Source: a virus. Taken from it: DNA of 64,000 bases. The translations under genes were made by a program, and so were the position numbers. The DNA lies in the IMG/VR virus record IMGVR_UViG_3300024264_000013, positions 32,060-96,059 of that record; one strand, given 5' to 3'. Shown piece after piece: positions 1 to 64,000 of this stretch. The notes under the pieces are model-generated. The model saw only the letters and a program-made list of their open reading frames with translations, ran no database searches and was not told where the DNA came from. Every line of letters starts with the position of its first letter. The stretch's first letter is position 1.

Positions 1-1484
1 GGACAGCAACGACTCTTCCAGCATCAAGTGCATGGTCAAGTGTAACCTGGGGCAAGGATAGATTTGTAGCAACTACAGCAAAAACTGATAGTAGTGTAGC
101 AGAAACAGCAGTAAGTCATGATGGTATAACTTGGGTTGCAGGAAGTATGGAACCAGGTGAATGGACTGGCATAGGCTATGCACAAGGAACATTTTGTGCT
201 GTGAAAAGTGATACAGGATCCGAATCAGATGTTATTGCATTTAGTAGAGATGGATATCATTGGAGAGCAAAATTATTACCAGCAGGATTTGAAACTAGGG
301 CAGGTGTTGCAGGCGCAAGTACAGAAAGTAAATGGGTTGTTGTAACAAGTGGCCAAGGTGATGCTAATAAAATTACATATGGTACACAAGCATTAGGTCG
401 TGCTGTTGTAAGCAGTGGACGTATTGGTTCGTTTACATTACACGAGCCGGGTGCAGGTTATACAACTGACCCTGTTGTGACAGTGCATGATAATACAAAC
501 ACATTAGATGTTACAACTAGAGCAGAAACAGCAAACGGTGTATTACCACAACCGACTATGACTAATAAAGGAGTTGGATACTTTAGATCAACTGCTGAAG
601 TCACTGCAGGTGACGGATATGCTGAAATACTACAAATTGCAGATACTTTAATTATAGAAAATGTAAGTAAACTTCCTGGACCGGGCGATAATATTAGTAT
701 TGACGGTATTGATGGTGTAACATATTTTGTTGTTAAAATACTTACAAGTTCAGGAGTACTTGGAGCATATAATTTAAAACTACAAATTAGTCCAAACTTA
801 GGTAGACAAGAAGCACCAGTACATGGTGAAAATATTGTTATTAGACAACAGTACAGTCAAATTAGATTAACAGGACATGATTTCCTAGATATTGGTACAG
901 GTAACTTTTCAAGCACAGCATATCCTGGACTATATGTATTTGGATACAATCCAGATGAAAACGCAGAACCAAAACAGTTCCAAGAAGTTAGTCAATTCAA
1001 CGGCGGGCGTGTATTCTACACAAGTACTGACCAAGATGGTAACTTTAGAGTTGGCGAACTATTTGAAGTTGAACAGGCAACAGGTACAATTAGTATTAAT
1101 GCTAGTTTCTTTGAATTAGATGGACTAGAAGAACTTAGACTTGGTGGTGTTGTACTTGGTGGTACAGGTGCTGTGATTAGAGAATTTAGTACAGATCCAA
1201 CGTTTGCGGCCAATAGTAACAATATTGTACCAACACAAAGAGCAATCGGCAAATATGTACAATCAAGAGTATCATCAGGTGGTTCAGATCTTAAAGTGAA
1301 CAGATTAAATGCTGGTGATATTAGTTTTGAAGGTAATAGAATCTTTAAAGTATTAGGTGGAGGCATTGATATTAATGTTGCCGCTAATATTACAGGCAAC
1401 GTATCGGGTGATATGGCGGCACAAGCATACTTCCAGTCTGGAGCATCAGTTCCTGAAGGCGGACCAGGATTTGGCGATGATTAA
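1..1484 (+). CDS. Tail fibre-like virion structural protein, 5'-truncated
   Basis: The reading frame is open from base 3 at the left edge to a TAA at 1482-1484, so the true start lies outside the window; the first internal ATG at 147 is not the start. The early part carries HDGITW and SRDGYHW motifs, like the Asp-box turns of beta-propeller proteins. The C-terminal ~360 residues are a paralogue of the end of the next protein: both share GHDFLDIGTGNF, VFYTSTDQDGNFRVG and a VPTQ.AI.KYV-like segment. These blocks are typical of fibre or baseplate-associated proteins of marine T4-like phages (family knowledge). A late promoter follows at 1492. I am confident it is a virion protein; the exact part is inferred. 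Confidence 0.75.
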   Translation, partial: TATTLPASSAWSSVTWGKDRFVATTAKTDSSVAETAVSHDGITWVAGSMEPGEWTGIGYAQGTFCAVKSDTGSESDVIAFSRDGYHWRAKLLPAGFETRAGVAGASTESKWVVVTSGQGDANKITYGTQALGRAVVSSGRIGSFTLHEPGAGYTTDPVVTVHDNTNTLDVTTRAETANGVLPQPTMTNKGVGYFRSTAEVTAGDGYAEILQIADTLIIENVSKLPGPGDNISIDGIDGVTYFVVKILTSSGVLGAYNLKLQISPNLGRQEAPVHGENIVIRQQYSQIRLTGHDFLDIGTGNFSSTAYPGLYVFGYNPDENAEPKQFQEVSQFNGGRVFYTSTDQDGNFRVGELFEVEQATGTISINASFFELDGLEELRLGGVVLGGTGAVIREFSTDPTFAANSNNIVPTQRAIGKYVQSRVSSGGSDLKVNRLNAGDISFEGNRIFKVLGGGIDINVAANITGNVSGDMAAQAYFQSGASVPEGGPGFGDD

Positions 1485-1491
1485 AGATAAT

Positions 1492-1499
1492 GATAAATA
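1492..1499 (+). promoter_or_regulatory. T4-type late promoter octamer GATAAATA
   Basis: GATAAATA, one base from the T4 late consensus TATAAATA, lies 23 bases before the ATG of the 1691-residue gene. The predicted start near 1505 leaves a short leader with a GGAG ribosome site at 1513-1516. Confidence 0.65.
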
Positions 1500-1522
1500 T
1501 AAAGTATACGGTGGAGTAACCA

Positions 1523-6598: not shown

Positions 6599-6610
6599 CG
6601 GAGAAACAAA

Positions 6611-6931: not shown

Positions 6932-6934
6932 ATA
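6927..6934 (+). promoter_or_regulatory. T4-type late promoter octamer CATAAATA
   Basis: CATAAATA overlaps the stop codon of the 106-residue gene (TAA 6929-6931) and precedes the ATG at 6955. AGGAGAAGG between them serves as the ribosome site. It probably drives the run of genes from 6955 to the terminator at 9965. Confidence 0.6.
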
Positions 6935-11860: not shown

Positions 11861-13666
11861 ATGAGCAAACCAGTTTGGATAGCAGGTATAGCAAGAGGAC
11901 ACAACGCAGGCGTTTGTCTATTAAAGGACGGCGAAGTAGTATTTGCTGTTGAAGAAGAACGTTTAAGTAGACAAAAATATGACGGCGGACCTTTTGCAAC
12001 AATGGTAAAAATACTTGATTACACAGATAAGTTAGATTATCTAGTTGTTGCTCATACACAAAAATTACAAGACTCTGCAGGTACAATTGACTATAGCGGA
12101 GATGATGTGTATACTGGACTAGCACGTAAACTAGGCCTTATTGACAAAAAGTCAAATGCATATACATATGAACATCCACAAGTAATTGATCTTGCTTTTA
12201 TGCACCACAAACTTCATAGTGCTTGTGCATTTTATCGTTCAGGATTTGATAGTGCAGTAAGTGTTATTGTAGACGGAGCAGGAACTTTTGTTCCTATTGG
12301 AGTTAACAATGAACAAGTTATGAGTTGGGAAGTAGAAAGTATTATTGATTGTGCTTATCCTGCAACATTTAATACTTTGCATAAAGTCTACGGAACTAGA
12401 GATCCAATTCAAGGCGGCATTGTACAAATGGACAGTACACAATTTGGTGAGAATGGTCGAACACACTCAGCAGTTGTAAGTGACAGAGCAGGTATTGTAA
12501 AAGCATACGAAGCGGCAACTATGTACTGCGGTTGGCAAAGTATTGAAGCAGGTAAAACTATGGGATTATTTCCATATGGTAAGCCTAATGATAAATTTCC
12601 AAAACTATTTGAAGATACAGCAGATTATCCATTAACAAATAGAAACATTGTAGTACCAAATTATCCTAACGGTGCATTAATCAATGCTGGGCTGTATAAA
12701 GAACTTTCCGAACAACCTAAAGAAAAAGAAAATAGCGATCTTACATTACTACAAAGTAGACGTGATATTGCGTATGCTGTGCAAACAGAAACACAAGAAC
12801 AAGTTACAGATTTAATTAGAAATGCTGTTGAATTATCTGGTAACAAAAACGTTGTTATTAGTGGAGGATACGGATTAAACTGTGTTGCAAATTATCATTA
12901 TTTAGATGCATTAAAAGACGAAGGCATTAAAATTTATGTTGAACCAGTTTCAAATGATGCAGGTACAGCAATGGGTGCCGCAATGATGTTTTGGTATGGG
13001 TTAGAAGATGAAACAGAAAAACGTCAAACACAAACATTATATTTAGGCCCTGCCAATAATTACACATCAGAAGATATTGTTGCAAAATCTAAAGAAGCAA
13101 GTGTAGAATTATCAGATGCTACACACGAAGATGTTGTAGACTTAATTACTAACAAAAATATTGTAACTATTTTCCAAGGTCAAAGTGAAAACGGTCCGAG
13201 AGCGTTAGGTAATAGAAGTGTACTATACGATCCGACAGATCCAAACGGTAAAGACCATGTTAACAAAGTTAAACACAGAGAATACTTTAGACCATTTGCT
13301 GGAACTATTTTACAAGACGATGTACATGAATGGTTTGATCTACGCGGCATGGAAGATAGTCCACATATGATGTATGCTGTAAACTGTCAACCAGGTATTG
13401 AAGAAAAAATTCCTGCTATTATACATGTAGACGGTACATGTAGAATTCAAACAGTTACAAGAGAACAAAATAAACATTACTACGATTTAATTAAAGCATT
13501 TAAAGATAAAACAGGTTGTCCTATTATCTTTAATACTAGTTTTAATTTAGGTGGTGAACCTCTTGTTGAAACACTTGAAGATGCTATTTGGACACTACAA
13601 AATAGTGATATTGAATATCTTTACCTTCCTGAATTTGGAAAACTAATCACTGTTAAAAACGCATAG
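11861..13666 (+). CDS. Carbamoyltransferase (NodU/TobZ/WapO superfamily)
   Basis: 601 residues, full length for the family, which moves a carbamoyl group from carbamoyl phosphate (through carbamoyl-AMP) to a sugar hydroxyl. The N-terminal domain has GIARGHNAGVCLLKDG and EEERLSRQK, then MHHKLHSACAFY with the metal-binding histidines and VDGAGTF. The C-terminal YrdC-like part has GQSENGPRALGNRSVL, REYFRPFAG and NTSFNLGGEPLVE, all family hallmarks. In Pseudomonas a member (WapO) carbamoylates core heptose, which fits the heptose genes here (inference). The gene sits three bases after the SGNH-like gene and ends the cassette. Confidence 0.88.
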   Translation: MSKPVWIAGIARGHNAGVCLLKDGEVVFAVEEERLSRQKYDGGPFATMVKILDYTDKLDYLVVAHTQKLQDSAGTIDYSGDDVYTGLARKLGLIDKKSNAYTYEHPQVIDLAFMHHKLHSACAFYRSGFDSAVSVIVDGAGTFVPIGVNNEQVMSWEVESIIDCAYPATFNTLHKVYGTRDPIQGGIVQMDSTQFGENGRTHSAVVSDRAGIVKAYEAATMYCGWQSIEAGKTMGLFPYGKPNDKFPKLFEDTADYPLTNRNIVVPNYPNGALINAGLYKELSEQPKEKENSDLTLLQSRRDIAYAVQTETQEQVTDLIRNAVELSGNKNVVISGGYGLNCVANYHYLDALKDEGIKIYVEPVSNDAGTAMGAAMMFWYGLEDETEKRQTQTLYLGPANNYTSEDIVAKSKEASVELSDATHEDVVDLITNKNIVTIFQGQSENGPRALGNRSVLYDPTDPNGKDHVNKVKHREYFRPFAGTILQDDVHEWFDLRGMEDSPHMMYAVNCQPGIEEKIPAIIHVDGTCRIQTVTREQNKHYYDLIKAFKDKTGCPIIFNTSFNLGGEPLVETLEDAIWTLQNSDIEYLYLPEFGKLITVKNA

Positions 13667-13684
13667 CGACTTTCTTCAAACTCC

Positions 13685-13692
13685 GATAAATA
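13685..13692 (+). promoter_or_regulatory. T4-type late promoter octamer GATAAATA
   Basis: GATAAATA 20 bases before the ATG at 13712, in the short gap after the carbamoyltransferase gene. It marks the return to virion genes. Confidence 0.6.
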
Positions 13693-13711
13693 GTATAAAG
13701 CGAGTTTGATT

Positions 13712-14098
13712 ATGGATATATTAAAATACTTTAAAAAAGGCCTAAGAGGCACAGTACTGGTCCAAGGAAGTCATTTTTCCTATGGTGGATCATGGAAATC
13801 AGTAGAAACTTCTCTACCACTAGATAGATGGTATCAAGGTGACTTTGCAAGTGCTGAATATACAATTAGTATCGAACTAGGTAGAGATAAAAAAGAAATT
13901 ATAAAATGTCTATTAACTGCTTCACCAAACGAAGCAAGCGTAGTAGTGTATGGTAGAACTAGCACAACTACTGATTTAGTTAATGTAACTGCACAAGTTA
14001 CTAACTCTTATGTTGAATTAATTTTAACACCAAAAACAGATGCTAATAAAGGTGCTAAAGCATCGTTTAGTGCAACTTATTTTAAGAGTCATACCTAA
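13712..14098 (+). CDS. Small virion-associated protein, function unknown
   Basis: 128 residues from the ATG at 13712; an in-frame TTG at 13706 would add only two residues and is not needed. The body is beta-rich (GTVLVQGSHFSYGGSW, SAEYTISIELGRDKKEIIKC) with a C-terminal ASFSATYFKSHT. I recognise no catalytic motif. It lies between a late promoter and another late-promoter gene, inside the structural cluster, so a fibre or baseplate accessory role is likely. The ribosome site is weak (AGCGAG). Confidence 0.6.
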   Translation: MDILKYFKKGLRGTVLVQGSHFSYGGSWKSVETSLPLDRWYQGDFASAEYTISIELGRDKKEIIKCLLTASPNEASVVVYGRTSTTTDLVNVTAQVTNSYVELILTPKTDANKGAKASFSATYFKSHT

Positions 14099-15075: not shown

Positions 15076-18000
15076 ATGGCAAAGAAGAAAATTAATAATT
15101 ATAAGTTTAAACCAGGAATAGGTTATTTAGATAATTTATTTCCAAACGCTTATGCACTTTTAAATACAAACAAAGCATTTTTACAAGCAGAAACTGGACA
15201 GTTTATTACTGAACGAGTAAGTGATGCTACGGCTTTTCAAGCAGATTTAATTGCATTAGTTGATGACTTAGAACAAGAAATGGTTTTAGGAACGACTGCT
15301 ACACAAAGACTATGGGGACAAATTGAAAATAAAAAAGATGTCCAAGTAAAATTAACACGTAAAAGAACATTACAAAGATTAAAAACTGGCCTAGCGGCTT
15401 TAAGTAACGTAACAAGCACATATCAAACTGCAATGGAAAATGCAATTGATGAAATTATTGATATTGCTGATAACGGATTTACTAGTGCTACTGCACTTGT
15501 TACATCAGAGCGCACAGGTGAAGCAATAGGAGATATTGGCCTTGCTGTTGCAAGATTAAAATCTAATCGTGCTTTTATGATTCGTGAAACAAAAGCATTT
15601 ATAGATGATGATACTCCTGGTAATACAATTACTACTGCTAGTGATTTTGAAATAAATCTTGGATTATTAATAGACGGTATTACACAAGACGTATCAACAA
15701 CAGCAAACAATCTAACTAGAACAATTAATACTCAAATTTATGTTAATACAACTCCGTCAGATAGATCATTACTAGGTGATGGTATGACTAGACTTGGAAC
15801 TGTAATTAAACAAGTTGTTGAAGGTAGCACAGTTGTACGCACTACTGGAAATTCGTTATCACAAGACACATCAGGAACAAGTGCTGGTACAGTACTAGGT
15901 GACAGATGTAAAACACATATATTAGATACACAAACAGTTATTGCAAACGGAACTATAGCAAGTTTACCATCCGCTGTATATCCAAATTATAGTGACGAAC
16001 CAGCGGCAGGTTTAGCGGCCGCAACAGATTTAGAAAATAATAAAACTATTGTCTCTACAAATGTAAATGCGTTTTATAATTATACATTTAACCAAGCAAA
16101 ATGTGAAAGAGATACTGGATTAATTTTAAATGCATACTTGTTTGATTTACGCTATGGCGGCAATTTCAAAACTTATGATTATGCAAGCAAATATTGGGAA
16201 GGCGATGTAGCACAAGTTGATGGCACACGTTATCCAGAGTTAGACACTCATAGTTGGCTTACAACATTAATTAGAGATTATGTGTTTGACAAAATAGCAT
16301 ATCCAAAAGAACAATCAGCAACAGCACAAACAGTTACAGGTGACGATGCGGAAACAGGTGCTGACACACCAATTACAGATCTAGGCTCTTTAGTAGTAAC
16401 AACTATCGAAGGTGGATTAAGTGCAAGGCCTACTTTTGTAGATACCGGTGCTGGTTATGTAAAGTTTCCAGGTAACTATGATTCAAGCGACATATTATTA
16501 ATTACTAACACAACAGATAATGAAGTTATATATGCATTCAACGATGTAAATAATGGCGGCTTTACTGAACAACCATCAGAGTTTATTTCAACTAATGGCT
16601 ATGCATATGATGAAGATGAAGACTTTCCAAAATATTTACAAACAACAGATGCCATTACAAAAGTTTATTTTAATAAATCAACAGCATCTCAAATTTCAGA
16701 AGATAAGTTACAAATTTATGTTGACACTGATGAATTAATTGTTAGACCATATGAGTTTGGTACAGATTCAATTGAACGTCAGCGTACTGCTGAACCACAG
16801 TCAATGCTTGATGCTGACTTTGAATATGGACTTCAGCCTACTAAATGGAGTGCTATTGCAACAATGCGTGGTTATCCATCAGTATACGAAGTTCCAGGAA
16901 CTGAAACAAGTGTTATAACAGTTATATCAGATAGTAGTGCTGGAACAGAAGGAGTTGGTAGTTCATTAATTACTGTTACAACAGCAGGTGCTCACGGATT
17001 TGAACTTGGTGATGCTATTACTATTAAAGGATTAAAACAAGACGTACAAGGATACAGCAGAGCAGAAGGTGCATTTATAATAATCTCTGTACCCAATGCA
17101 ATTAGTTTCCAATTTTATGCAAAAGCAAAAGTCGGAACTGGTGGTAATGTTAATATCGAAGCAGAAGCAACACAACTAAGGCAAGCAGGATTTTACACAG
17201 GTGCAAGTATTGGTGTACCAACATTTAGTGTAGAAAGTCAAGGTAGTTCGGGTGTAATTAGGCCAGCATTAACTGTTGATTCCGGCGAAGACGTAATACC
17301 GTTCACAGTTACATCAGGCGCCGCACCAGAAATTGGTGCTCCATTATCAGCATCATCAGGAATTTCACTTGGTACACAGGTTACTGGTAGAGTTGGAACT
17401 GGTGGTATTGCTGTAACTCCAGTTACAACAGCAGACTTTCCTCCAGGAACAACAGAGATTACAGTACAATCTGCAACAGGCATACAACAGAATATGGCCG
17501 CTAACAAAGGTGACGGTACAGTAACACTTGTTAACACAGTTGTAGGAAATACAATTACACTTAATGAAGCAATAACAACCGATTTTTACGGTAACTTAGT
17601 TACGTACACAGCAGTTGAAGGTACTAATATTGTAAGTTTAGGATTTGGTGCGGCATTTAGTATTAGCAGAGCAGGCGGTAATTATTCATTAGTTGAAATT
17701 GTTAATTCAGGACAAGATTACCAAGTTGGTGATGTTTTAGAAATTCAAGGTGAATTTTTAGGTGGTATTACACCAACTCATGATTTAAATATAACAGTTA
17801 ATACTGTTGATACAGGTGGTGAAATATTAACTGTAACACTAGCAGGTAATGCTTTTGACGGAACTGCAACTTTTCCTAATACAAATGGTGAATATCAAAA
17901 CGGTCAAGGTACTGGCGGAACATGGGATATAGGTTATACTTCTAATGTTTTCAACTCAGTTACTCAAGTCAATCCAAGTTTTGTTGCACAAACAGGTCAA

Positions 18001-32996: not shown

Positions 32997-35900
32997 ATGG
33001 CATTATCATCACCAGGTGTTGAGGTTAAAGTAATAGACGAAAGTTTTTACACGCCCAGCGAACCAGGCACCGTACCAATGATATTTGTTGCTACCGCACA
33101 AGATAAACAAAATGGCGGCGGGACTGGAACAGCACCAGGAACAACAGCGGCAAATGCAGGTAAACCTTACTTGGTTACCTCACAAAGAGATTTAGTAGAA
33201 ACATTCGGCGAACCAAAATTTTATACGGATACCAACAACAATCCGATACATGCAGGTGAACTTAATGAATATGGACTACAAGCGGCTTACTCACTATTAG
33301 GTGTAAGTAACAGAGCATATGTAGTTAGAGCAGGCATTGACCTAAGTGGGTTAACAGCAAGTGCAGAGGCTCCAACAAGTAACCCAACGAATGGCACATA
33401 TTGGGTAGATACAGCAAGTAATGTATATGGTATCTTTGAATGGAATTCAGCAGGAGCAGAAACGCTCGGCGGACAATCGTTTGGATATAAAAAGCCATTA
33501 GTAATTACAGATGCAACTAGACTATTTGGCGAAGTTGCAACAGGCGCACCAAAAACGTCAGTAGGCGGAGTAGGCGAATATGCTATTACAGCGGCAAGTA
33601 CACTACACAAACTATACTACAAAAATGAAAGTGGTACATGGGTTGAAGTAGGAACTGGCGCATGGAAAGCAAGTTGGGCTACAACATCAGGTGTTGCTGG
33701 TTCAACAACAACTTCAGGTTTGACTTTTACTCTTAACAGTACAACAGTAACAGCAAACGCAACAGACGCAACAGCATTGGCGGCAGTAATTAATGGTTTA
33801 GGCATTAGTGGTGTTACAGCAACAGTTGAAGCGGCTAACGATATATTAAGATTACACTCAACAGGTGTTAACATTGTACTAGCAGAAGGCACAGGCGCAC
33901 TAGGCGACATGGGTCTTGTAGCAGGAACATATGCGGCACCAGCGTTGAATATTGCTCCTCATACAAGTGTTCCCGAGTTTGGTGCAAGCGATACAACTCC
34001 ACGTCCAACAGGAAGTGTTTGGGCAAAGACTACTACACCAAATAAAGGTGCTAAATGGGCAATCAAAGTTTGGAATGATGCAACTAAATTATGGGACTTA
34101 AAAGATGTTCCAATTTTTAGTTCAAACCAAGCGGCTCTAGCAACACTTGATAAAGCAGGCGGCGGTTTAAATCTTGCAACATCAAGTCTTTATATTAAAT
34201 CAAACGATGCTGAAGCATCTGATTTAGTAGGAAACTTTAAAGTGTACAAACGCAATTCAACAGGTGCAACAAGTATTACTTCAAGTGCAGTAACTACACA
34301 AGCATCTAGTGGTACAGCATCATTTACTCTTCAAGAGTCAATTGTAGGCAGTGCAACACTAGGAAGTGCAGTAACAATTTCACAGGCAGTTGATGGTGAT
34401 GCAGGTGATGCTGATCATATTGCAGGTGCAATTAACTCAGCAGGACTTACAAATGTAAGTGCAAGTGTTGACTCACAAAACAGAGTTGTAATTTCACACT
34501 CAAAAGGTGGTGATTTTAGAATTGCTGACACAAGTGGTCACTTAGCAGAAATTGGTTTTAGTACAACAGATACTGCAAACTTATATACTGCACCAGCAGG
34601 TGATACAAGTGCAGACTTTATTGCAACTAACTGGAAAGTTTTATCAGCAACTAATAGTTCAAGTGCTCCAACTGCTTTAGCAGTAGACGGAACATTATGG
34701 TACAATAGTATTGTTGACGAAGCAGACATTATGGTACACAATGGTACAACTTGGGTAGGTTATCAAGATACGTCTAGTCCGTACTTTGCGAATGCGGCAG
34801 GTGATAAAACTGATCCAAACGGACCAATTGTAAGTGCAACAGAACCAGTAGCGGCAACAGGACAATCAGATGGAACAGCATTGAAAGATGGTGACCTTTG
34901 GATTAACACTACAAATATTGACAAGTATCCAGAAATTTATCGCTGGTCACATGCTAAACAAATTTGGGTGTTATTAGATTCAAGTGATCAAACAACATCA
35001 GATGGTGTATTGTTTGGTGATGCACGTTGGTCAACAGCAGGTTCACTTAGTAAAGAAGCAACTATTGTAGATTTACTAGCAAGTAACTTCTTAGATCCAG
35101 ATGCTCCAGATCCAGCATTGTATCCAAAAGGTATGATTTTATTTAACACACGCAGAAGCGGATTTAATGTTAAGAAATTTGTACGTAACTATATTGATAC
35201 AACAGGTGAAAACGGACGTCAAGCAGATGCATTAATGAATTCTTACTATCCACACAGATGGGTAACTGAGTCAGCAAATAATGCAGACGGTTCAGGTAAG
35301 TTTGGTCAATCAGCACAGAGAGCAGTTGTTGTACAAGCAATGCAATCAATGATTAACAGCAACCAAGACATTCGAGATGATGAATCAAGAGTGTTTAACT
35401 TAATGGCGGCACCAGGGTATCCAGAACTAATTGGCGAAATGATTTCACTAAACTATGACAGAGGCTTAACAGCATTTGTTGTAGGTGATTCACCAGCAAC
35501 ACTAGATTCAAGTGCTACATCAATTAACGAATGGGGCACAAACGTTGCTCTTGCAGTTGAAGATAACAGCGACGGTCTAGTAAGTAGAGATGAATACTTA
35601 GGTGTTTACTACCCATGGGGCTTCACAAGTGATAACGCAGGTAACAACGTTGTTGTTCCGCCAAGTCACATGATGCTAAGAACTATTGCACTAAGCGATC
35701 AAGTATCGTTTCCATGGTTTGCTCCAGCAGGAACAAGACGTGGTGGAATTACTAACGCAACAGCAACAGGGTATATTGATAACGAAGGCGAATTTGTTTC
35801 AATTGCACTAAACGAAGGACAGCGTGATACGTTGTTTGGTATTAGTGTAAACCCAATTACATTTATTACAGGCGCAGGACTTGTTTGTTTCGGTCAGAAA

Positions 35901-36245
35901 ACAAGAGCAAGAAATGCAAGTGCATTAGATAGAGTAAACGTTGCTAGACTAGTAATTTACATGCGTAGCCAACTTAATAAACTTGCTAAGCCTTATATCT
36001 TTGAGCCAAATGATAAAATCACACGTGATGAAATCAAACAAGCGGCAGAAAGTCTAATGCTTGAGTTAGTTGGTAGTAGAGCACTATATGACTACATTGT
36101 AGTATGTGACGAATCTAACAATACTCCTAGTAGAATTGATAGAAACGAACTATACTTAGACATTGCAATTGAACCAGTTAAGGCTGTGGAATTCATTTAC
36201 ATTCCACTTAGACTTAAGAATACAGGAGAGATTGCAGGATTATAA
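32997..36245 (+). CDS. gp18: Contractile tail sheath protein, gp18
   Basis: 1082 residues, much longer than T4 gp18 (659). The N-terminus LSSPGVEVKVIDESFYTPS and VTSQRDLVETFGEPKF are family signatures, and the C-terminal third has the conserved sheath domain (NVVVPPSHMMLRTIALSDQ, FPWFAPAGTRRGGITNA, INPI-like, then ARLVIYMRSQLNKL and DYIVVCDESNNTPSRID). Between residues ~120 and ~690 lie extra threonine/alanine-rich outer domains with repeated GT.W-type strands. An exact late promoter and an AAGGAGA site precede it, and a hairpin terminator follows. Confidence 0.93.
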   Translation: MALSSPGVEVKVIDESFYTPSEPGTVPMIFVATAQDKQNGGGTGTAPGTTAANAGKPYLVTSQRDLVETFGEPKFYTDTNNNPIHAGELNEYGLQAAYSLLGVSNRAYVVRAGIDLSGLTASAEAPTSNPTNGTYWVDTASNVYGIFEWNSAGAETLGGQSFGYKKPLVITDATRLFGEVATGAPKTSVGGVGEYAITAASTLHKLYYKNESGTWVEVGTGAWKASWATTSGVAGSTTTSGLTFTLNSTTVTANATDATALAAVINGLGISGVTATVEAANDILRLHSTGVNIVLAEGTGALGDMGLVAGTYAAPALNIAPHTSVPEFGASDTTPRPTGSVWAKTTTPNKGAKWAIKVWNDATKLWDLKDVPIFSSNQAALATLDKAGGGLNLATSSLYIKSNDAEASDLVGNFKVYKRNSTGATSITSSAVTTQASSGTASFTLQESIVGSATLGSAVTISQAVDGDAGDADHIAGAINSAGLTNVSASVDSQNRVVISHSKGGDFRIADTSGHLAEIGFSTTDTANLYTAPAGDTSADFIATNWKVLSATNSSSAPTALAVDGTLWYNSIVDEADIMVHNGTTWVGYQDTSSPYFANAAGDKTDPNGPIVSATEPVAATGQSDGTALKDGDLWINTTNIDKYPEIYRWSHAKQIWVLLDSSDQTTSDGVLFGDARWSTAGSLSKEATIVDLLASNFLDPDAPDPALYPKGMILFNTRRSGFNVKKFVRNYIDTTGENGRQADALMNSYYPHRWVTESANNADGSGKFGQSAQRAVVVQAMQSMINSNQDIRDDESRVFNLMAAPGYPELIGEMISLNYDRGLTAFVVGDSPATLDSSATSINEWGTNVALAVEDNSDGLVSRDEYLGVYYPWGFTSDNAGNNVVVPPSHMMLRTIALSDQVSFPWFAPAGTRRGGITNATATGYIDNEGEFVSIALNEGQRDTLFGISVNPITFITGAGLVCFGQKTRARNASALDRVNVARLVIYMRSQLNKLAKPYIFEPNDKITRDEIKQAAESLMLELVGSRALYDYIVVCDESNNTPSRIDRNELYLDIAIEPVKAVEFIYIPLRLKNTGEIAGL

Positions 36246-40136: not shown

Positions 40137-40868
40137 ATGAAAGATCTATTACAAAAATTAACGGACCTAGAGAACACTTTAGATTCAATGGACCCAACAC
40201 CAAAAGAAGTTAAGCAAATTAATGAAGCGGCTTCAATGAGTATTAATATGTCAGGTGAAACAGCAGATGATGTTGCACGCCTAGTACAAATTATGCGTGA
40301 CGGCGGAGCACCAGATGCAGGCGAAATGAAGCCAGACATGATGCCACCAATGGGACCACCAGATATGGGTAAGATGCGTGACCTAGTTAAAATGGCACCA
40401 CCAATTGACATGGACGGAATGGACGGACCACCAGATATGCCAGGCATGGACAAAGGTGATGACAAAGATGCTATTATGGGCATGGATATGGAAGATGACG
40501 TAGAAGAAGCAGGCTACGACAACTCACCAGAAGAAGATTATAAAGATCATAACTATATGACTAAAGATTTATCAGGCGGTATTAACCGTGAGAAGAAAGC
40601 ATATGCGGCCGCTCAAGCCGGCGATAATGCAATGGCTGTAGAAGAATTACAATCAGCATTACGTGATGCACTTATGTCTAAAATGGCAGAAACAGATGAA
40701 GTAGTTGAAGCAGAAGAAGATGACTTTGACGAATCAGGATGTGTAGGCGAAATGAAAAAACTTATGGCAAGCGGCTGTACTAAAACAGAAATGTTCCAAA
40801 AAGTACAAGACGGATACGGTTGCGGTAAAGGTAAATTCGAAAAACTATTCGCGGCACACTGCGGCTAA
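40137..40868 (+). CDS. Acidic Met/Pro-rich packaging-region protein
   Basis: 243 residues in three parts: a helical start (LLQKLTDLENTLDSMDPTPKE), a low-complexity middle rich in Met, Pro, Gly and Asp (PDMMPPMGPPDMGKMRD, DGMDGPPDMPGMDKGDDKD), and an acidic end with a folded-looking Cys segment (ESGCVGEMKKLMASGCTK, DGYGCGKGKFEKLF). It starts right after the previous stop codon and ends just before a UUCG terminator. It could be scaffold- or core-related; nothing in sequence proves it. Confidence 0.6.
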   Translation: MKDLLQKLTDLENTLDSMDPTPKEVKQINEAASMSINMSGETADDVARLVQIMRDGGAPDAGEMKPDMMPPMGPPDMGKMRDLVKMAPPIDMDGMDGPPDMPGMDKGDDKDAIMGMDMEDDVEEAGYDNSPEEDYKDHNYMTKDLSGGINREKKAYAAAQAGDNAMAVEELQSALRDALMSKMAETDEVVEAEEDDFDESGCVGEMKKLMASGCTKTEMFQKVQDGYGCGKGKFEKLFAAHCG

Positions 40869-40925: not shown

Positions 40926-42506
40926 ATGAGCAAATCACTTGACGGCGTATTAATTAAAAAAGCCAATAAACGAGAAACATTTACTAATGATCAAGTAGAG
41001 GCGTTACTTAAATGTAGCGACACGAAACTTGGGTACGACTACTTTGCTCGTAACTTTGCATACATACAACACCCTGTTAAAGGTAAACTTTTGTTTGATC
41101 CATTTGAATATCAAGAACGTTTATTACAAAGTTATCACGATTATAGATTTAATATTAACATGTTGCCAAGACAAACAGGAAAGACAACCTGTGCGGCAAT
41201 TTACTTATTATGGTATGCTATGTTTGTACCAGATCAAACCATTCTTATTGCGGCACACAAATATACAGGCGCACAAGAAATTATGCAACGTATTCGTTAT
41301 GGATATGAAATGTGTCCAGATCATATTAGAGCAGGGGTTACAAACTATAACAAAGGTAGCATTGAATTTGAAAACGGAAGTAGAATTGTAAGTGCTACTA
41401 CAACAGGAAACACAGGACGTGGTATGTCCATATCATTACTATACTGTGACGAGTTTGCATTTGTACAACCTAATGTTGCCACAGACTTTTGGACATCAAT
41501 ATCACCTACACTAGCAACAGGTGGTCGTGCTATTCTTACATCAACACCTAACTCGGATGAAGATACATTTGCTACTATATGGAAACAAGCAGAAGATAAG
41601 TTTGATGAACATGGCAACGAAAACGAATTAGGTAAAAACGGATTTCATAGTTTTCGTAGTTATTGGCAAGAGCATCCTGATAGAGATGACGAATGGAAAA
41701 GAGAAGAACTAGGACGTATTGGTGAAGAAAGATTCAAGCGTGAGTACGATTGCGAATTCTTAGTATATGATGAAACCTTAATTAACTCAATTAAATTAGC
41801 CACACTAGAAGGTGACACTCCTATTATTAATATGGGACAAACACGTTGGTATAAAAAACCTAGTCGAGAGTTTACATACGCAGTTGCACTTGATCCTAGT
41901 ATGGGTACAGGTGGAGACAATGCGGCTATCCAAGTATTTGAATTACCTAGTTACGAACAGGTAGCAGAATGGCAACACAATACTACAGCAATACCTGCAC
42001 AAATTAGAATAATGACAGATATATGTAAGCATATTGAACAAGAAACTGGCGATGCAAGTACTATCTATTGGAGTGTTGAGAACAACGGATTAGGAGAAGC
42101 CGCACTTATTGTTATTAATGACTTTGGTGAAGAGAATATACCCGGATTATTTGTAAGTGAACCTATTAGAAAAGGGCATGTACGTAAGTTCCGTAAAGGA
42201 TTTAATACTACACATGGTACCAAAGTAACAGCATGTAGTCGACTAAAGACCATGGTCGAAAACGATAAAATGATACTGCATAGTAAGCCTATGATAAGTG
42301 AACTTAAAAATTATGTAGCCACAGGGTCAAGTTATAATGCAAAACTAGGTCAAACAGACGATTTAATTAGTGCAACGCTATTAGCACTTAGAATGATGGA
42401 TGTATTGAAGGATTGGGATCCTAGAATCTATGATACGTTTAATCAGTCAGATCAGCACGGAGATTATGTAGAACCAATGCCAATCTTCGTTAGTAACAAT
42501 TATTGA
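40926..42506 (+). CDS. gp17: Terminase large subunit, gp17
   Basis: 526 residues against 610 in T4. ATPase and nuclease that pumps and cuts packaged DNA. The ATPase domain has the Walker A MLPRQTGKTT (79-88), Walker B LLYCDE (171-176) and coupling motif TSTPNS (205-210). The RNase H-like nuclease has ALDPSMGTGGDN with D323, E385 in SVENNG, and D478/D479 in GQTDD. The N-terminal ~50 residues carry FARNFAYIQHPVKGKL, typical of the family. It follows a strong terminator, and a late promoter six bases upstream predicts a leaderless mRNA. Confidence 0.95.
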   Translation: MSKSLDGVLIKKANKRETFTNDQVEALLKCSDTKLGYDYFARNFAYIQHPVKGKLLFDPFEYQERLLQSYHDYRFNINMLPRQTGKTTCAAIYLLWYAMFVPDQTILIAAHKYTGAQEIMQRIRYGYEMCPDHIRAGVTNYNKGSIEFENGSRIVSATTTGNTGRGMSISLLYCDEFAFVQPNVATDFWTSISPTLATGGRAILTSTPNSDEDTFATIWKQAEDKFDEHGNENELGKNGFHSFRSYWQEHPDRDDEWKREELGRIGEERFKREYDCEFLVYDETLINSIKLATLEGDTPIINMGQTRWYKKPSREFTYAVALDPSMGTGGDNAAIQVFELPSYEQVAEWQHNTTAIPAQIRIMTDICKHIEQETGDASTIYWSVENNGLGEAALIVINDFGEENIPGLFVSEPIRKGHVRKFRKGFNTTHGTKVTACSRLKTMVENDKMILHSKPMISELKNYVATGSSYNAKLGQTDDLISATLLALRMMDVLKDWDPRIYDTFNQSDQHGDYVEPMPIFVSNNY

Positions 42507-44414: not shown

Positions 44415-45413
44415 ATGGCATCATTAGCAGAAATCAGAGCAAAACTGAAATCTCAAGAAACGAACACTGGCGGACAACGCAGTGGCGGCGGCGACAACGC
44501 AATTTACCCATTTTGGAATATGCAAGAAGGACAGAGTGCAACACTCCGTTTCCTTCCTGATGGTAACGCAGATAATACGTTTTTCTGGACAGAAAGACTT
44601 ATGATCAAATTACCTTTTCCAAGCATTAAAGGTGAACCAGGCAGTAAGCCTGTACAAGTACAAGTTCCATGTATGGAAATGTATGGCGAAACATGTACTA
44701 TTCTTAACGAAGTACGTGGTTGGTTTAAAGATCCATCATTAGAAGATATGGGTCGTAAGTATTGGAAGAAGCGTTCATACGTATTCCAAGGCTTTGTAAC
44801 TGAAAACCCAATTGGAGAAGATGCTACTCCAGAAAATCCAATTAGACGTTTTATTATTGGTCCACAGATTTTTCAAATCATTAAGCAGGCGCTTATGGAT
44901 CCAGACATGGAAGAATTACCAACAGATTATACTGCTGGTGTAGACTTCCGTCTTAACAAAACATCTAAAGGTGGTTATGCTGATTACTCAACATCAAGTT
45001 GGGCTCGTAGAGAGCGTCCACTTGTTGATGCAGAAATGAATGCTGTAAACACAAACGGGTTGTTTAATCTAGGTGATTTCCTTCCTAAGAAGCCAGACGA
45101 GATTGGCGTAAAGGTAATGCAAGAGATGTTCGAAGCATCTGTTGACGGACAACCTTATGATGCAGATCGTTGGTCACAGTACTTCCGTCCAAGCGGGATG
45201 CAAGCACGTACAGGTGATCCAATGGTGGCGGCAAGCCCACAAGCAACCGCAGTAAGTCAAAGTGCTCCAGTAGCACCTACACCGGCACCAGAAGCGGCAC
45301 CTGCTCCAGTAGCAGAAGCAACTCCTGCGGCACCGGCGACTGAAACTGCACCTGCAGACGGCAATGGCGCACAAGATATTCTAGCAATGATTAGAAATCG
45401 TCAAGCACAATAA
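44415..45413 (+). CDS. gp32: Single-stranded DNA-binding protein, gp32
   Basis: 332 residues. It coats single-stranded DNA during replication and recombination. The N-terminal LAEIRAKLKSQ is the basic LAST-type region for cooperative binding. The OB-fold core includes YPFWNMQEGQSATLRFLPDG, FFWTERLMIKLPF and YWKKRSYVFQGFV. The zinc ribbon of T4 gp32 is reduced: PCMEMYGETCTIL keeps two cysteines but lacks the CxxC partner. The C-terminus is Ala/Pro/Glu-rich rather than purely acidic. It has a perfect sigma-70 promoter and AGGAGG ribosome site. Confidence 0.93.
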   Translation: MASLAEIRAKLKSQETNTGGQRSGGGDNAIYPFWNMQEGQSATLRFLPDGNADNTFFWTERLMIKLPFPSIKGEPGSKPVQVQVPCMEMYGETCTILNEVRGWFKDPSLEDMGRKYWKKRSYVFQGFVTENPIGEDATPENPIRRFIIGPQIFQIIKQALMDPDMEELPTDYTAGVDFRLNKTSKGGYADYSTSSWARRERPLVDAEMNAVNTNGLFNLGDFLPKKPDEIGVKVMQEMFEASVDGQPYDADRWSQYFRPSGMQARTGDPMVAASPQATAVSQSAPVAPTPAPEAAPAPVAEATPAAPATETAPADGNGAQDILAMIRNRQAQ

Positions 45414-45469: not shown

Positions 45470-46567
45470 ATGGCTAAATCGTTCGACGTTAGTAAGTTCC
45501 GTAAGGACTTAACTAAAAGCATCTCAGGCATGAGTAGCGGCTTTAATGATCCTACAGATTGGATCTCAACAGGCTCATATGCACTTAACTATCTTATTAG
45601 TGGCGACTTCCACAAAGGTGTTCCACTAGGTAAGGTAACTGTATTTGCAGGTGAATCAGGCGCAGGTAAATCTTACTTTTGTTCTGGTAACATTGTAAAA
45701 CACGCACAAGACCAAGGCATCTTTGTAGTACTAATTGACTCAGAGAATGCACTTGATGAAAGTTGGCTACAAGCATTAGATGTAGACACATCAGAAGAAA
45801 AACTACTAAAACTTAACATGAGTATGATTGATGATGTTGCTAAAACAGTATCAACATTTGTAGCAGACTATAAAGCAATGCCAGAGGAAGATCGTCCTAA
45901 AGTATTATTTGTAGTTGACTCATTAGGTATGTTATTAACACCTACAGACGTAGATCAGTTTAACAAAGGTGATATGAAAGGTGATATGGGTCGTAAGCCT
46001 AAGCAATTGACTGCACTTGTTCGTAACACAGTTAACATGATTGGTTCACTTAATGTAGGACTAGTATGTACTAACCACACATATGCATCACAGGATATGT
46101 TTGATCCAGATGACAAGATTAGTGGTGGACAAGGTTTTGTTTATGCATCAAGTATTGTTGTTGCAATGAAGAAAATGAAACTTAAAGAAGACGAGGCTGG
46201 TAACAAGATTTCAGAAGTACGTGGTATACGTGCAGGCTGTAAAGTTATGAAAACTCGTTATGCAAAACCGTTTGAAGGTGTACAAGTAAAGATCCCATAC
46301 GAAACAGGTATGAATCCTTACAGTGGTCTTATTGAATTATTTGAGAAAAAAGGCTTGTTAGAGAAGCAAGGCAACAGACTCAAGTATGTTGATCTAAACG
46401 GAGAAGAACATATTGATTATCGTAAAGCATGGATGGTAGGTGATAAACTTGATTTGATTATGTCGGAATATGCAGACAAAACAGCACCTTTGGTAAATAC
46501 CGAGGAAGATGATGTAGAAGAAGCATTAACTGATAATCAAATTGAGGAAACAGCCGCACATGAATGA
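45470..46567 (+). CDS. uvsX: RecA-like recombinase UvsX
   Basis: 365 residues. Strand-exchange ATPase of phage recombination and replication restart. Walker A GESGAGKS at 61-68, Walker B KVLFVVD at 144-150, and the DNA-binding region LVCTNHTYASQDMFDPDDKISGG-type loop with KISGGQGFVYASS. The N-terminal SISGMSSGFNDPTDWISTGSYALN is the usual entry to the core. It follows gp32 with an AAGGAG site; no own promoter is visible. It overlaps the next small gene by eight bases. Confidence 0.95.
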   Translation: MAKSFDVSKFRKDLTKSISGMSSGFNDPTDWISTGSYALNYLISGDFHKGVPLGKVTVFAGESGAGKSYFCSGNIVKHAQDQGIFVVLIDSENALDESWLQALDVDTSEEKLLKLNMSMIDDVAKTVSTFVADYKAMPEEDRPKVLFVVDSLGMLLTPTDVDQFNKGDMKGDMGRKPKQLTALVRNTVNMIGSLNVGLVCTNHTYASQDMFDPDDKISGGQGFVYASSIVVAMKKMKLKEDEAGNKISEVRGIRAGCKVMKTRYAKPFEGVQVKIPYETGMNPYSGLIELFEKKGLLEKQGNRLKYVDLNGEEHIDYRKAWMVGDKLDLIMSEYADKTAPLVNTEEDDVEEALTDNQIEETAAHE

Positions 46568-54274: not shown

Positions 54275-54275
54275 T

Positions 54276-58708: not shown

Positions 58709-58710
58709 CT

Positions 58711-59217: not shown

Positions 59218-59227
59218 GGAGGTAATT

Positions 59228-60244: not shown

Positions 60245-60710
60245 ACTAAATCAATGGATTGCTGATTGGGTTGAGCAGTTAGACAAAAATAAAAAATGTC
60301 CTTATGCAAAACCAACTGTTGACAAAGATAAAATGAAAGCAGTTATGTTAAATAGCATTGATGCTTACCACTTCTGGTCAAGCGTTTCCAATGAAGCAGA
60401 ACAATTTGACGACACATACGATGTAGTAATAGTAGCAATGGATACTGACGAAACTATAATAACTCCGCAACAAATGCAAGGCGGAGTCGATAGTTTTAAT
60501 GCAGGCTACAATAACAGGAATATAGATTTGTGGTGTTTGAATCTATATAACGATGTATACACAATGGTATTAATACAACGTGTATCCAAATTAGACGATG
60601 CAAGTAGGACGTTTGAAAAGAAAGATTATTACAAAGACCAACATCCTTACATGTTTAATAAACACATAATAACAAGAAGAAATATGAGAAAACGGTTGAC
60701 AAAAACCTAA
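60231..60710 (+). CDS. Unknown protein with CPYAKP motif
   Basis: 159 residues. The start LNQWIADWVEQLDKNKKCPYAKP has the W..., CP(Y/F)A block reminiscent of the small bacterial family DUF1415, but the rest (DTYDVVIVAMDTDETII, NLYNDVYTMVLIQRVSKL) does not let me confirm it. The C-terminus is basic (RRNMRKRLTKT) and contains the -35 box of the folE promoter. It overlaps the oxygenase gene by 14 bases. Function unknown. Confidence 0.5.
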   Translation: MKANKLNQWIADWVEQLDKNKKCPYAKPTVDKDKMKAVMLNSIDAYHFWSSVSNEAEQFDDTYDVVIVAMDTDETIITPQQMQGGVDSFNAGYNNRNIDLWCLNLYNDVYTMVLIQRVSKLDDASRTFEKKDYYKDQHPYMFNKHIITRRNMRKRLTKT

Positions 60711-60724
60711 ATAACTTATATAAT
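60696..60724 (+). promoter_or_regulatory. Consensus sigma-70 promoter of folE
   Basis: TTGACA (60696-60701), 17-base spacer, TATAAT (60719-60724), perfect consensus; predicted start near 60731, then a 38-base leader with CGGAGA. Confidence 0.85.
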
Positions 60725-60768
60725 ATAACAACTATAGACATCCACGTCTAAAACTCGGAGAATAAAAA

Positions 60769-61476
60769 ATGGATATTAAATACGAAGATGCTAACGTTTC
60801 AGAACTAATTAAAGAAAGAATTAGTGATGACAATGCTCGCTTTTGGGCTGGAGATAACATTAGTCAATACCTTGAAGAAGGTGATAAACAAAAACTTATT
60901 GAAGAACTTACACCTAAGTTTGAAGCAGTACTAGATAGTTTAGTAATTGATCGATTCAACGACCCTAACAGTATGGATACTGGTAAGCGTCTTGCAAAGA
61001 TGTATATTAACGAAATTATGAGTGGTAGGTATGATCCAATGCCTAATGCAACTGCATTTCCTAATCATGTAGATGATGGTTATAAAGGATTGCTAGTAGT
61101 ACGTAGTGAACTTAAAAGTATGTGTTCACATCATCACCAACCAGTTAGTGGCGTTGCATACATTGGTATCATTGCGGCAGACAATCTAATTGGTCTTTCA
61201 AAGTACACAAGAATTGCACAGTGGTGTGCGAGGCGCGGGACATTACAAGAAGAATTAAACAACGTAATTGCTCGTGAGATCATGGCGGCAACTGGTAGTG
61301 AAAACGTCGGCGTTTACATTCAAGCAACACACGGATGTTGTGAGAATAGAGGCATCGGTGCTCACTCTAGTCTAACACAAACCACAGTGTTAGAAGGGGC
61401 GTTTAAGAATGATGCAGGAACAAAGAAGGAATTCTTTGACAACATCAAACTACAACAACAATTTGCTCCACGATAA
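60769..61476 (+). CDS. folE: GTP cyclohydrolase I
   Basis: 235 residues. Converts GTP to dihydroneopterin triphosphate, first step of both folate and 7-deazaguanine (queuosine) synthesis. The zinc and catalytic residues are visible: C119 with HHH 121-123 in SMCSHHHQPVSG, and C190/C191 in ATHGCCENRG. The LIGLSKYTRIAQWCARRGTLQEEL block is diagnostic. It has a perfect promoter and GGAG site and is followed by a queuosine-precursor transporter, which favours the deazaguanine role (inference). Confidence 0.95.
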   Translation: MDIKYEDANVSELIKERISDDNARFWAGDNISQYLEEGDKQKLIEELTPKFEAVLDSLVIDRFNDPNSMDTGKRLAKMYINEIMSGRYDPMPNATAFPNHVDDGYKGLLVVRSELKSMCSHHHQPVSGVAYIGIIAADNLIGLSKYTRIAQWCARRGTLQEELNNVIAREIMAATGSENVGVYIQATHGCCENRGIGAHSSLTQTTVLEGAFKNDAGTKKEFFDNIKLQQQFAPR

Positions 61477-61496
61477 TTTTAACAAAAGGAGAACAT

Positions 61497-62189
61497 ATGT
61501 TCAATAAACTATTAGAAGGTGTCGATAGGACACTCGTAAGAAATCTAGTTATTTTACACACGCTTGTAATTGCTGTGTCAAACTACCTAGTAACAATTAG
61601 ATTTGATTTATTTCCAGGAGCAGAATTGCCCTTGTTTGGATCATTTCCACTAGCGGCGGCGGCGTTTACATTTCCGATCGTTGTTGTAGCAACTGATTTG
61701 ACAGTACGTCTAGTTGGTAAGCAAGCAGGTAGAGCCGTTGTAGCAATGGCAATTATTCCTGCTATTGTAGCATCAGTACTAGTACTATTAGCACTAGGCG
61801 ACGAACATGCATACAGAGTAGGACTAGCATCAGGTACTGCATATGCAGTAGGTACAATGCTTGACGTATATGTATTCCAACACATTCGTGAGCGTATGAA
61901 TGCATGGTGGATTGCTCCAGCAGTATCAACTGTTGCGGCAAACATCATTGATACATATGCATTCTTCTACACAGCATTTTATCCTGCACCGTGGGTTGGA
62001 CCAGTAGCATTCAACAATACATTAACAAAAATTGTTGTAGGCTTAATTGTGTTCCTACCAGCATACGGCTTGTTACTTTCATACTTGAAAAACAAGTTTG
62101 GTGTAGACGCTTTAGTTCTCAAAGACGAAGTAAAGCCAACAACTAAAAAGAAAGCACCAGCCAAGAAAAAAGCAAAAATTAAGAAATAA
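61497..62189 (+). CDS. yhhQ: Queuosine precursor transporter, YhhQ/VUT family
   Basis: 230 residues with about six hydrophobic membrane segments. The family block FTFPIVVVATDLTVRLVGKQAGR and GTAYAVGTMLDVYVFQHIRER, WWIAPAVST and IIDTYAFFYTAFY match YhhQ proteins, which import preQ0/preQ1. The C-terminus carries a Lys-rich tail (TTKKKAPAKKKAKIKK) unusual for the family. AAGGAGA ribosome site. Next to folE it suggests the phage gets 7-deazaguanine bases by import; no DpdA or queC-E lies in the window. Confidence 0.85.
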   Translation: MFNKLLEGVDRTLVRNLVILHTLVIAVSNYLVTIRFDLFPGAELPLFGSFPLAAAAFTFPIVVVATDLTVRLVGKQAGRAVVAMAIIPAIVASVLVLLALGDEHAYRVGLASGTAYAVGTMLDVYVFQHIRERMNAWWIAPAVSTVAANIIDTYAFFYTAFYPAPWVGPVAFNNTLTKIVVGLIVFLPAYGLLLSYLKNKFGVDALVLKDEVKPTTKKKAPAKKKAKIKK

Positions 62190-62722
62190 TGTTTTTTTCA
62201 TCGTCATATGTCAAGCAATTAAAAAGTGTTCATAACTACGAACACAGGCCTTCAGGGTTCGGAGCCAATACAAAAAAGTTAGGACAGTTTAATAACTATT
62301 TTGAAAAATGGCAACCCCAAAGTATGCTAGACTATGGCTGTGGTAAAGGTTGGATTTTAAATTCATTAGTAGAGTCGTACCCTTCATGTAATATTGTTGG
62401 GTACGATCCTGCTGTTGAAGAATATAAAGTTTGTCCACAAACAACATTTGACTGTGTGTTTAGTATAGATGTTCTTGAACACATAGAACCAAATTATATA
62501 GATTCGGTATTAGATCACATTAACCAATTATCAAATAAATTTATTTGGTTAAGGATAGATACGTTACCAGCAAGAAAAAGATTACCAGACAAAAGAAATG
62601 CACATCTTATTATTGAACAACCTCCGTATTGGATTGAAAAAATAAAAAAACATATTGACGGTGAAATTGTTTATGAGATGTTTGGAAAAAAGGCAAAACT
62701 AGATGTCGCAATTGAGAAGTAA
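62189..62722 (+). CDS. SAM-dependent methyltransferase
   Basis: 177 residues, class I fold: MLDYGCGKGWILNSL is motif I, YDPAVEEY the second strand end, and FDCVFSIDVLEHIEPNY motif IV with the following helix. The first ~45 residues (VHNYEHRPSGFGANTKKLG) are basic. It starts at the last base of the transporter stop (TAATG). The substrate is unknown; sugar, nucleobase or pterin-derived molecules fit the neighbours equally well. Confidence 0.75.
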   Translation: MFFSSSYVKQLKSVHNYEHRPSGFGANTKKLGQFNNYFEKWQPQSMLDYGCGKGWILNSLVESYPSCNIVGYDPAVEEYKVCPQTTFDCVFSIDVLEHIEPNYIDSVLDHINQLSNKFIWLRIDTLPARKRLPDKRNAHLIIEQPPYWIEKIKKHIDGEIVYEMFGKKAKLDVAIEK

Positions 62723-62723
62723 A

Positions 62724-62978
62724 ATGATACCAGGAGAAGCATTACTATACACTAGGGCTAATGGTGTTGTATATGCTCAGTACAGAGATCCACCGCATAA
62801 TGATATACCAAGATGGATTATAGGCGGCGATCCAGGAGCAGTATCAAAGGCACAAGGGGACTTATTAGATTATGCAGAATGGAAACATTTATGCGAGATA
62901 GCAGAAGATAATCCAACAATAAAACTTTTGTTAGACAAATTAATTAACACATACTATATTGCAAAGGAGGAACAATGA
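62724..62978 (+). CDS. Small conserved-looking protein, function unknown
   Basis: 84 residues from the ATG at 62724, one base after the previous stop and behind GAGAAG; an in-frame ATG at 62703 inside the previous gene is less likely. MIPGEALLYTRANGVVYAQY and DPPHNDIPRWIIGGDPGA form a compact beta part, then two helices. Similar small proteins occur in marine T4-like phages (family impression). It overlaps the aldolase by four bases (ATGA) and carries its AAGGAGG ribosome site. Confidence 0.6.
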   Translation: MIPGEALLYTRANGVVYAQYRDPPHNDIPRWIIGGDPGAVSKAQGDLLDYAEWKHLCEIAEDNPTIKLLLDKLINTYYIAKEEQ

Positions 62979-63766
62979 AATTTATTGCGGCAATGGACCA
63001 TAGTGGTGGATCAACAGGTGGTGTACTAGAACGTTACGGTTGCGAGTACACAGAAGAAAACAAAATGGACTTAGTACATGAAATGCGATTACGCATGATT
63101 GCTTCGCCCGACTTTAACAGTAATAATATTTGGGCGGCAATTTTATATAAAGATAGTGTCGATAGAGGAGCAGTTAATGTATTAGGCAATAAAGGTATTG
63201 AGGCCATACTTAAAATTGATAGTGGCTGTCATATGAACGGGTTACTAAAAGATTTTAATGTAGACGATATGATTGACTATGCTCTTGCAAAAGGGTGTAC
63301 AGGAACTAAGATGCGTAGTATTGTAAAGACACCTAATATACTAAATGCAATATTAGAGCAACAATTTGAACTTGCAACAGTAATATATGCCGCAGGACTT
63401 ATGCCAATTGTTGAACCAGAAATTCCTATCGAACATGACATGAAAAACATGTTGGAAGAAATGCTTACTAGAGAATTACAAAATAGATTAGACAAATTTG
63501 AAGGCAAGTGTATATTAAAACTTACATTGCCAAACACACCAAATCTACATTACAAACTAACACAACATCCTAATGTTTCAAAAGTAGTAGGTCTTAGTGG
63601 TGGATATGATACCAATGAAGCATGTAATAGACTAGGTCTACAAGAAAACATGACTGCAAGTTTTAGTAGAGCCTTAAGTGAAGGACTATTTGTTACACAG
63701 TCAGAAGAAGAGTTTAATCAAAGACTTAGTAACAATATTAAACTAATAACAAAGGCGAGTGAATAA
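62975..63766 (+). CDS. Class I fructose-bisphosphate aldolase-like enzyme
   Basis: 263 residues against ~300 in bacteria. It has FIAAMDHSGGSTGGVLERYG, a GCTGTKMRSIVKTP loop, IVEPEIPIEHD and CILKLTLPNTPNLHY, whose Lys in LKLTLP is the expected Schiff-base residue, then VVGLSGGYDTNEA and ASFSRALSEGLF. These are in the family order. It can cleave or form fructose 1,6-bisphosphate and, by family knowledge, also sedoheptulose 1,7-bisphosphate. Directly followed by kdsA (TAATG), which needs sugar phosphates, so a role in precursor supply is plausible. Confidence 0.88.
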   Translation: MKFIAAMDHSGGSTGGVLERYGCEYTEENKMDLVHEMRLRMIASPDFNSNNIWAAILYKDSVDRGAVNVLGNKGIEAILKIDSGCHMNGLLKDFNVDDMIDYALAKGCTGTKMRSIVKTPNILNAILEQQFELATVIYAAGLMPIVEPEIPIEHDMKNMLEEMLTRELQNRLDKFEGKCILKLTLPNTPNLHYKLTQHPNVSKVVGLSGGYDTNEACNRLGLQENMTASFSRALSEGLFVTQSEEEFNQRLSNNIKLITKASE

Positions 63767-64000
63767 TGAGAATAATAGCAGGACCATGTCAGCACGAAAG
63801 TTTAGAACAGTCGTTAGAGATTGCAACAGAATGTAAACGGGTATGTGACAAATACGGTATTGAGTATTACTTTAAAGCAAGTTTTGATAAAGCAAATCGT
63901 ACAAGCGCAGATGGTATCCGAGGACAAGGTTTGCCTACAACAATGACAGACTTTCGTGTATTAAAAGAAAAATTAAATGTAAAAACACTAACTGATGTAC
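63766..64000 (+). CDS. kdsA: Kdo-8-phosphate synthase, 3'-truncated at window edge
   Basis: The first 78 codons are present, starting at ATG 63766 in the aldolase stop (TAATG). KdsA joins arabinose-5-phosphate and phosphoenolpyruvate to Kdo-8-phosphate for LPS. RIIAGPCQHES, FKASFDKANRTSADGIRGQG and LTDV at the cut are the family's N-terminal blocks with substrate-binding Lys and Asn/Arg. DAHP-type synthases share the fold, but SFDKANR with a following RG.G is KdsA-like. The end lies outside the window. Confidence 0.85.
   Translation, partial: MRIIAGPCQHESLEQSLEIATECKRVCDKYGIEYYFKASFDKANRTSADGIRGQGLPTTMTDFRVLKEKLNVKTLTDV

Follow-up and report, generated by a model that had tools for sequence, protein, structure and literature searches.

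A 64,000-nucleotide stretch of phage DNA (the window; bases 32060-96059 of the 96-kb virus record IMGVR_UViG_3300024264_000013, labelled L001) is free of both GCWGC, that is GCAGC and GCTGC, and AGCT, and we consider it probable, at roughly 80 %, that its genome was purged of the two words by two separate Type II-like restriction activities of the host. The agent we infer is a restriction endonuclease, encoded by the host. The loss is exact to the site, differs from lineage to lineage and runs through synonymous codons; a very large phage would have been shaped by restriction across its whole genome, down to its choice of alanine codons.

Counts and codon choice in the window

1-64000, both strands: stretch free of GCWGC and AGCT, by exact counts and codon shuffling

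A preliminary description had reported GCAGC/GCTGC as apparently absent and GCGGC/GCCGC as common, which exact counting upholds: neither GCWGC nor AGCT occurs once on either strand, while GCCGC and GCGGC are found 24 and 106 times (130 in total). A maximum-order Markov model expects 64-66 GCWGC and 136-141 AGCT in the window. As a further null, synonymous codons were permuted within the window's own 61 genes in 500 shuffles, keeping proteins and codon usage, which gave a mean of 91.9 GCWGC (minimum 80 in the 500 shuffles) and of 171.7 AGCT (minimum 140), against none observed for either word. The earlier chance estimate of about 20 GCWGC per strand was therefore too low, as codon shuffling expects 92 and the Markov model about 65. 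Both deficits are present in genes of either strand, as had been described; that of AGCT spans all three codon phases, and the Ala-Ala phase holds 85 of the 92 expected GCWGC. The remainder of the 96-kb record outside the window contains a single GCWGC (L001 at 12446) and no AGCT. With elimination defined as an observed/expected ratio below 0.1 at an expectation of at least 15, both words are eliminated in the window and in the lineage to which it belongs (clade A, see below).

The codon-level route can be followed in the alanine pairs, of which three examples are given here:

15997-16023, + strand: Ala-Ala pairs written GCG-GCA and GCG-GCC-GCA
40606-40614, + strand: alanine run GCG-GCC-GCT
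61653-61664, + strand: four-alanine run, written GCGGCGGCGGCG

These had been cited before (the second from 40609, the third now placed exactly) and read as described. GCA is the favoured alanine codon of the window (901 of 1443, with 341 GCT, 134 GCG and 67 GCC), yet the first alanine of a pair is GCG in 77 and GCC in 23 cases and never GCA or GCT, so that GCG and GCC account for 100 of 100 first codons compared with 201 of 1443 alanine codons overall. The claims made for glycine hold as well: Gly-Cys is never written GGC-TGC, and GGC in front of an AGY serine is always followed by AGT. Likewise, AGC before an AGY serine always gives AGC-AGT.

The phage, its lineage and its probable host

The following genes were used to place the phage:

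32997-36245, + strand: tail sheath (PHROG 10581, E=9e-229), marking a contractile-tailed phage
40926-42506, + strand: terminase large subunit (PHROG 36964, E=4e-122), used for placing the phage and its relatives
44415-45413, + strand: T4-type ssDNA-binding protein of a T4-like replication module (PHROG 1192, E=1.5e-60)
45470-46567, + strand: UvsX-like recombinase (PHROG 97, E=1e-70)

Together with a tail tube protein, these predicted products identify the window as part of a T4-like myovirus. The best named match of the terminase in tblastn is the PA5oct group (Arenbergviridae) at no more than about 54 % identity; close terminase relatives are encoded on hundreds of viral-collection contigs, and a megablast search of the window's first 25 kb against named phages gave no match. 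The phage belongs to the marine jumbo myoviruses of bacteria, and we infer its marine origin from a Red Sea MAG as well as from a search based on ribonucleotide reductase (RNR), which relates it to phages of Pelagibacter and Synechococcus. Clade A, the window's own lineage, comprises the double avoiders at terminase identities of at least 91 %. It includes G001, a 182-kb sister contig of the window's record, and its genome is sampled over about 200 kb; G014, a near-complete relative, measures 335 kb.

Several further genes were observed in these records. The window carries a large auxiliary gene at 11861-13666 for a Nol-like carbamoyltransferase with a strong PHROG match, and glutamine riboswitch and manA RNA motifs lie upstream of the window at L001:13287-13333 and 13571-13776. 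At window positions 60769-62189, a gene for FolE (GTP cyclohydrolase I) is followed by one for a 7-cyano-7-deazaguanine/queuosine precursor transporter. Taken with the QueC- and QueE-like genes that G001 carries and with a PTPS (QueD-type) gene of G014, they suggest a preQ0 pathway in these phages. No TGT/DpdA domain was found, and 7-deazaguanine in DNA and in tRNA are both possible.

Clues to the host come from tmRNA genes carried by the relatives:

L125:2048-2355, L180:7277-7613 and L144:20051-20436: permuted alphaproteobacterial tmRNA genes with the tag ANDNYAPEMAMAA or ANDNYAPEMALAA

The tag ANDNYAPEMAMAA, for which a literature search gave no match, is shared between G014 and the double-avoiding contig L180, the latter being placed in clade A on the strength of its avoidance signature and of the metagenome it shares with L015 (3300012953), not by physical linkage. 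Other phage contigs show diverse tmRNA tags, some of about 30 residues (e.g. L196). As permuted tmRNAs are also carried by Pelagibacter phages and no psbA (PF00124) was detected in the relatives searched, the alpha-type tmRNA points to a host that is probably an alphaproteobacterium. A cyanobacterial host, hinted at by heme oxygenase, bilin reductase and the glutamine riboswitch, was rejected in view of the psbA missing from those relatives, and Neomarinimicrobiota, to which the MAG holding G014 is assigned, was distrusted because the link is made by binning only. G014 (L123-L128, 1-120 kb) encodes heme oxygenase and bilin reductase next to many host-like metabolic genes, among them those for a phosphate ABC transporter, PEP carboxykinase, alternative oxidase and NifU.

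Exactness of the sites and their loss among relatives

Across the 182 kb of G001, AGCT is observed 0 times against 394 expected and GCWGC 0 times against 193, or against 455 and 218 by codon shuffling. No other word of four or five bases is as depleted in this contig; near neighbours of the avoided words are spared, and GATC, CATG and TTAA are close to expectation. GCSGC reaches 267 occurrences where codon shuffling expects 56, a 4.7-fold excess that arises because alanine pairs begin with GCG or GCC, and that rules out a general dislike of GCNGC. Over 278 kb of clade-A sequence, in which both sites are at or nearly at zero, there are 0 of 611 expected AGCT and 1 of 307 expected GCWGC; the other clade-A terminase contigs pooled hold one of each.

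Ahead of another alanine, GCA or GCT is used in only 1 of 384 clade-A cases, while in relatives of like codon preference this first codon is GCA in 63 % and GCT in 31 %, no different from other alanine positions. The same Ala-Ala bias without a link to restriction, which would have spoken against the preliminary reading, is thus absent from phage relatives of equal codon preference. Where alanine follows an A, clade A uses GCA, GCG and GCC at fractions of.83,.10 and.07; after other bases the values are.55,.07 and.05, which match the former once rescaled. The lost GCT is hence replaced in proportion to the other alanine codons, which indicates selection on the site rather than one type of mutation. 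Deamination of m5C destroys such sites, and sites methylated in the phage could in principle vanish in this way; the lack of an excess of any one mutation product, together with the consideration that a count of exactly 0 of 611 would not be maintained by mutation on its own, leaves this explanation with next to no credibility. The words were removed by selection against the exact sequence through synonymous change.

Among 80 relatives, three states were found: neither site present (clade A), GCWGC depleted with AGCT normal, and both at normal frequency. At 83-87 % terminase identity there are relatives, some of them recovered from the same metagenomes, in which both sites occur at normal frequency; a few relatives have eliminated AGCT and kept GCWGC. 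The existence of contigs lacking one word and retaining the other, in both directions, agrees with the earlier proposal of two separate avoided sites. In metagenome 3300025849, AGCT stands at 0 of 20 expected in L042 against 44 of 61 in L067, and in 3300049740 at 0 of 26 in L006 against 30 of 45 in L058. Contigs of one sample in different states rule out a sequencing artefact. A codon-pair or base-composition bias would fit the fact that some palindromes such as CGCG are low across the whole phage family, but nothing of the kind was found for GCWGC or AGCT: relatives of the same GC content and alanine preference are near expectation for both sites (the non-avoiding G004 has 244 GCWGC for 245 expected), and a mechanical codon-pair effect is ruled out by these relatives and by the permutation. 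We regard bias or artefact as extremely improbable.

In the terminase tree, AGCT avoidance amounts to one change leading to a clade of 19 rows with a support of 100, whereas GCWGC avoidance requires at least four changes. As PA5oct lies outside the tree group and does not avoid the sites, a gain of avoidance is the simpler reading. Other lineages have lost other words. G014, which is found in a public MAG, shows 35 GCWGC for 413 expected and 2 GTGCAC for 69, with AGCT at 1280 for 1278. ACGT is missing from L072 (0 of 20) and CATG from L216 (0 of 55), CTAG is eliminated in L209, L211 and L212 (0 of 28 to 0 of 45, the latter in L212), and the G005 group has lost AAGCTT and GACGTC. By trees and counts, the avoidance state thus differs from one related phage to another, which is what dependence on the host would predict.

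A second, wider set of 65 contigs was picked by RNR and, like the terminase sets, tested for elimination of 4-base palindromes and selected 5-base words. Of these words, the two most often eliminated in the RNR set were GCWGC, in 26 of 65 contigs, and AGCT, in 18; the tree of this set requires at least 5 state changes for AGCT and 8 for GCWGC. The terminase sets gave 20 of 114 for GCWGC, 13 of 84 for CGCG and 10 of 114 for AGCT. Losses of AGCT and GCWGC are associated by raw counts (Fisher p 2e-5), with too few independent pairs once relatedness is allowed for.

Proposed host restriction, rival causes and known systems

We propose that the host has two separate restriction activities of Type II-like character, which would cut phage DNA carrying GCWGC or AGCT and from which the phage would escape by shedding the sites through synonymous changes. 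The GCWGC pressure would be common in the phage family and recur in several lineages, and the AGCT pressure would be a single later addition in the window's lineage. Escape by synonymous change is proposed because no protecting methyltransferase of the phage's own was found: C5- and N4/N6-methyltransferase domains (PF00145 DNA_methylase, PF01555 N6_N4_Mtase) were absent from the phage records searched, which sample clade A in part, and DPPY-type motifs in these records were confined to proteins that are large or structural. One candidate, L095:112-909, was rejected as a DNA methyltransferase; its PHROG match covers only positions 52-108 of 633, a ParB match lies over the same residues, and we read the similarity as a ParB-like part common to both families rather than as a catalytic domain.

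The avoided words equal the known Type II recognition sites of AluI (AGCT) and TseI/BbvI (GCWGC), their neighbours are spared, the state shifts between close relatives and the lost palindromes vary by lineage, all of which argues for a pair of Type II systems in the host. Lineage-specific losses of various palindromes fit several such systems and exclude codon-context or compositional causes. In the literature, orthodox Type II sites are reported as the only ones commonly avoided, and non-temperate dsDNA phages as the only ones with raised near-exclusion (PMC6286503); methylation of GCWGC and of AGCT is described from aquatic prokaryotes (PMC6329791). Elimination below 10 % is, however, a minority outcome at 4-8 % of phage-site pairs (PMC6286503), which makes two complete eliminations at once unusual and counts against our reading. 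BbvI/TseI-like restriction in the host with a separate AGCT system, as suggested in the preliminary description, nevertheless stands as the best explanation.

A modification-dependent (Type IIM/IV) host enzyme could act instead, with a host methyltransferase modifying GCWGC or AGCT in incoming DNA and a BisI- or McrBC-like enzyme cutting the methylated sites. BisI-family enzymes are described to cut methylated GCNGC, and avoidance alone does not tell which enzyme cuts; two enzymes per site would be required, though, GCSGC would not be spared unless the methyltransferase were specific for GCWGC, and only weak avoidance is reported for such enzymes (Rusinov et al., PMC6286503), so that we consider this unlikely.

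Fainter still is the prospect that the phage itself encodes one or two site-specific nucleases directed against host DNA or rival phages and cleared its own sites for immunity. Complete elimination in a large phage lacking a methyltransferase would fit, about a third of the clade-A genome is unsampled and could hide the gene, and nuclease-like genes do exist. Of these, HNH_5 occurs in G014 and is absent from the sampled clade-A records, and phrog_1314 ('HNH endonuclease') is found in avoiders and non-avoiders alike (G001, G014, G021, G022), as is phrog_274 'endonuclease V', which was rejected for this reason. Much of clade A (the window and the opening 50 kb of G001) was scanned against Pfam and PHROG, as was the rest of G014; among the 25 commonest families per set, there was no restriction-type nuclease and none confined to avoiders. 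The many different lineage-specific losses would moreover call for a different nuclease each time.

Returning to host restriction, the set of words eliminated in each lineage offers a fingerprint, open to testing, of the restriction systems that uncultured phages encounter, and could link these phages to hosts with methylomes determined by long-read sequencing. A wider proposal, about which we hold more doubt than conviction, is that GCWGC and AGCT denote two restriction specificities common worldwide among the marine, probably alphaproteobacterial, hosts of large myoviruses, and that these drive repeated, independent and complete purging of both words in separate lineages, the eliminated words forming a readable record of host range for uncultured phages.

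Compared with known GCWGC systems (BbvI, TseI/ApeKI and M.AbaBS3I, an m4C methyltransferase of lake Chloroflexi; PMC6329791), the avoided word is exactly the recognition sequence and GCSGC is spared; the phage sequences searched yielded no enzyme of this kind. Likewise, the second word is exactly the AGCT of AluI-type systems, of which no enzyme was found either, and AGCT m4C methylation is described for lake Thaumarchaeota (PMC6329791). The Pelagibacter myophages HTVC008M and Mosig EXVC030M are also marine, eliminate palindromes and carry a permuted tmRNA, but they belong to the Kyanoviridae, keep GCWGC and have lost other sites (TCGA and CGCG; ACGT and GATC), with ACGT at 0 of 63 and GATC at 5 of 112 in Mosig (L295). 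Pseudomonas phage PA5oct (Arenbergviridae, Wroclawvirus), which its terminase (54 %) places among the closest relatives that have a name, shows no avoidance over 41 kb, with 84 AGCT for 90 expected and 51 GCWGC for 41. The non-temperate dsDNA phages of Rusinov et al. 2018 (PMC6286503) show the same elimination (<0.1) of short palindromic Type II-like sites, whereas here two sites are near zero over 278 kb of uncultured marine jumbo phages and their state can be traced on a family tree. Site elimination is already known; what is new is a complete double elimination in large uncultured phages that shifts lineage by lineage.
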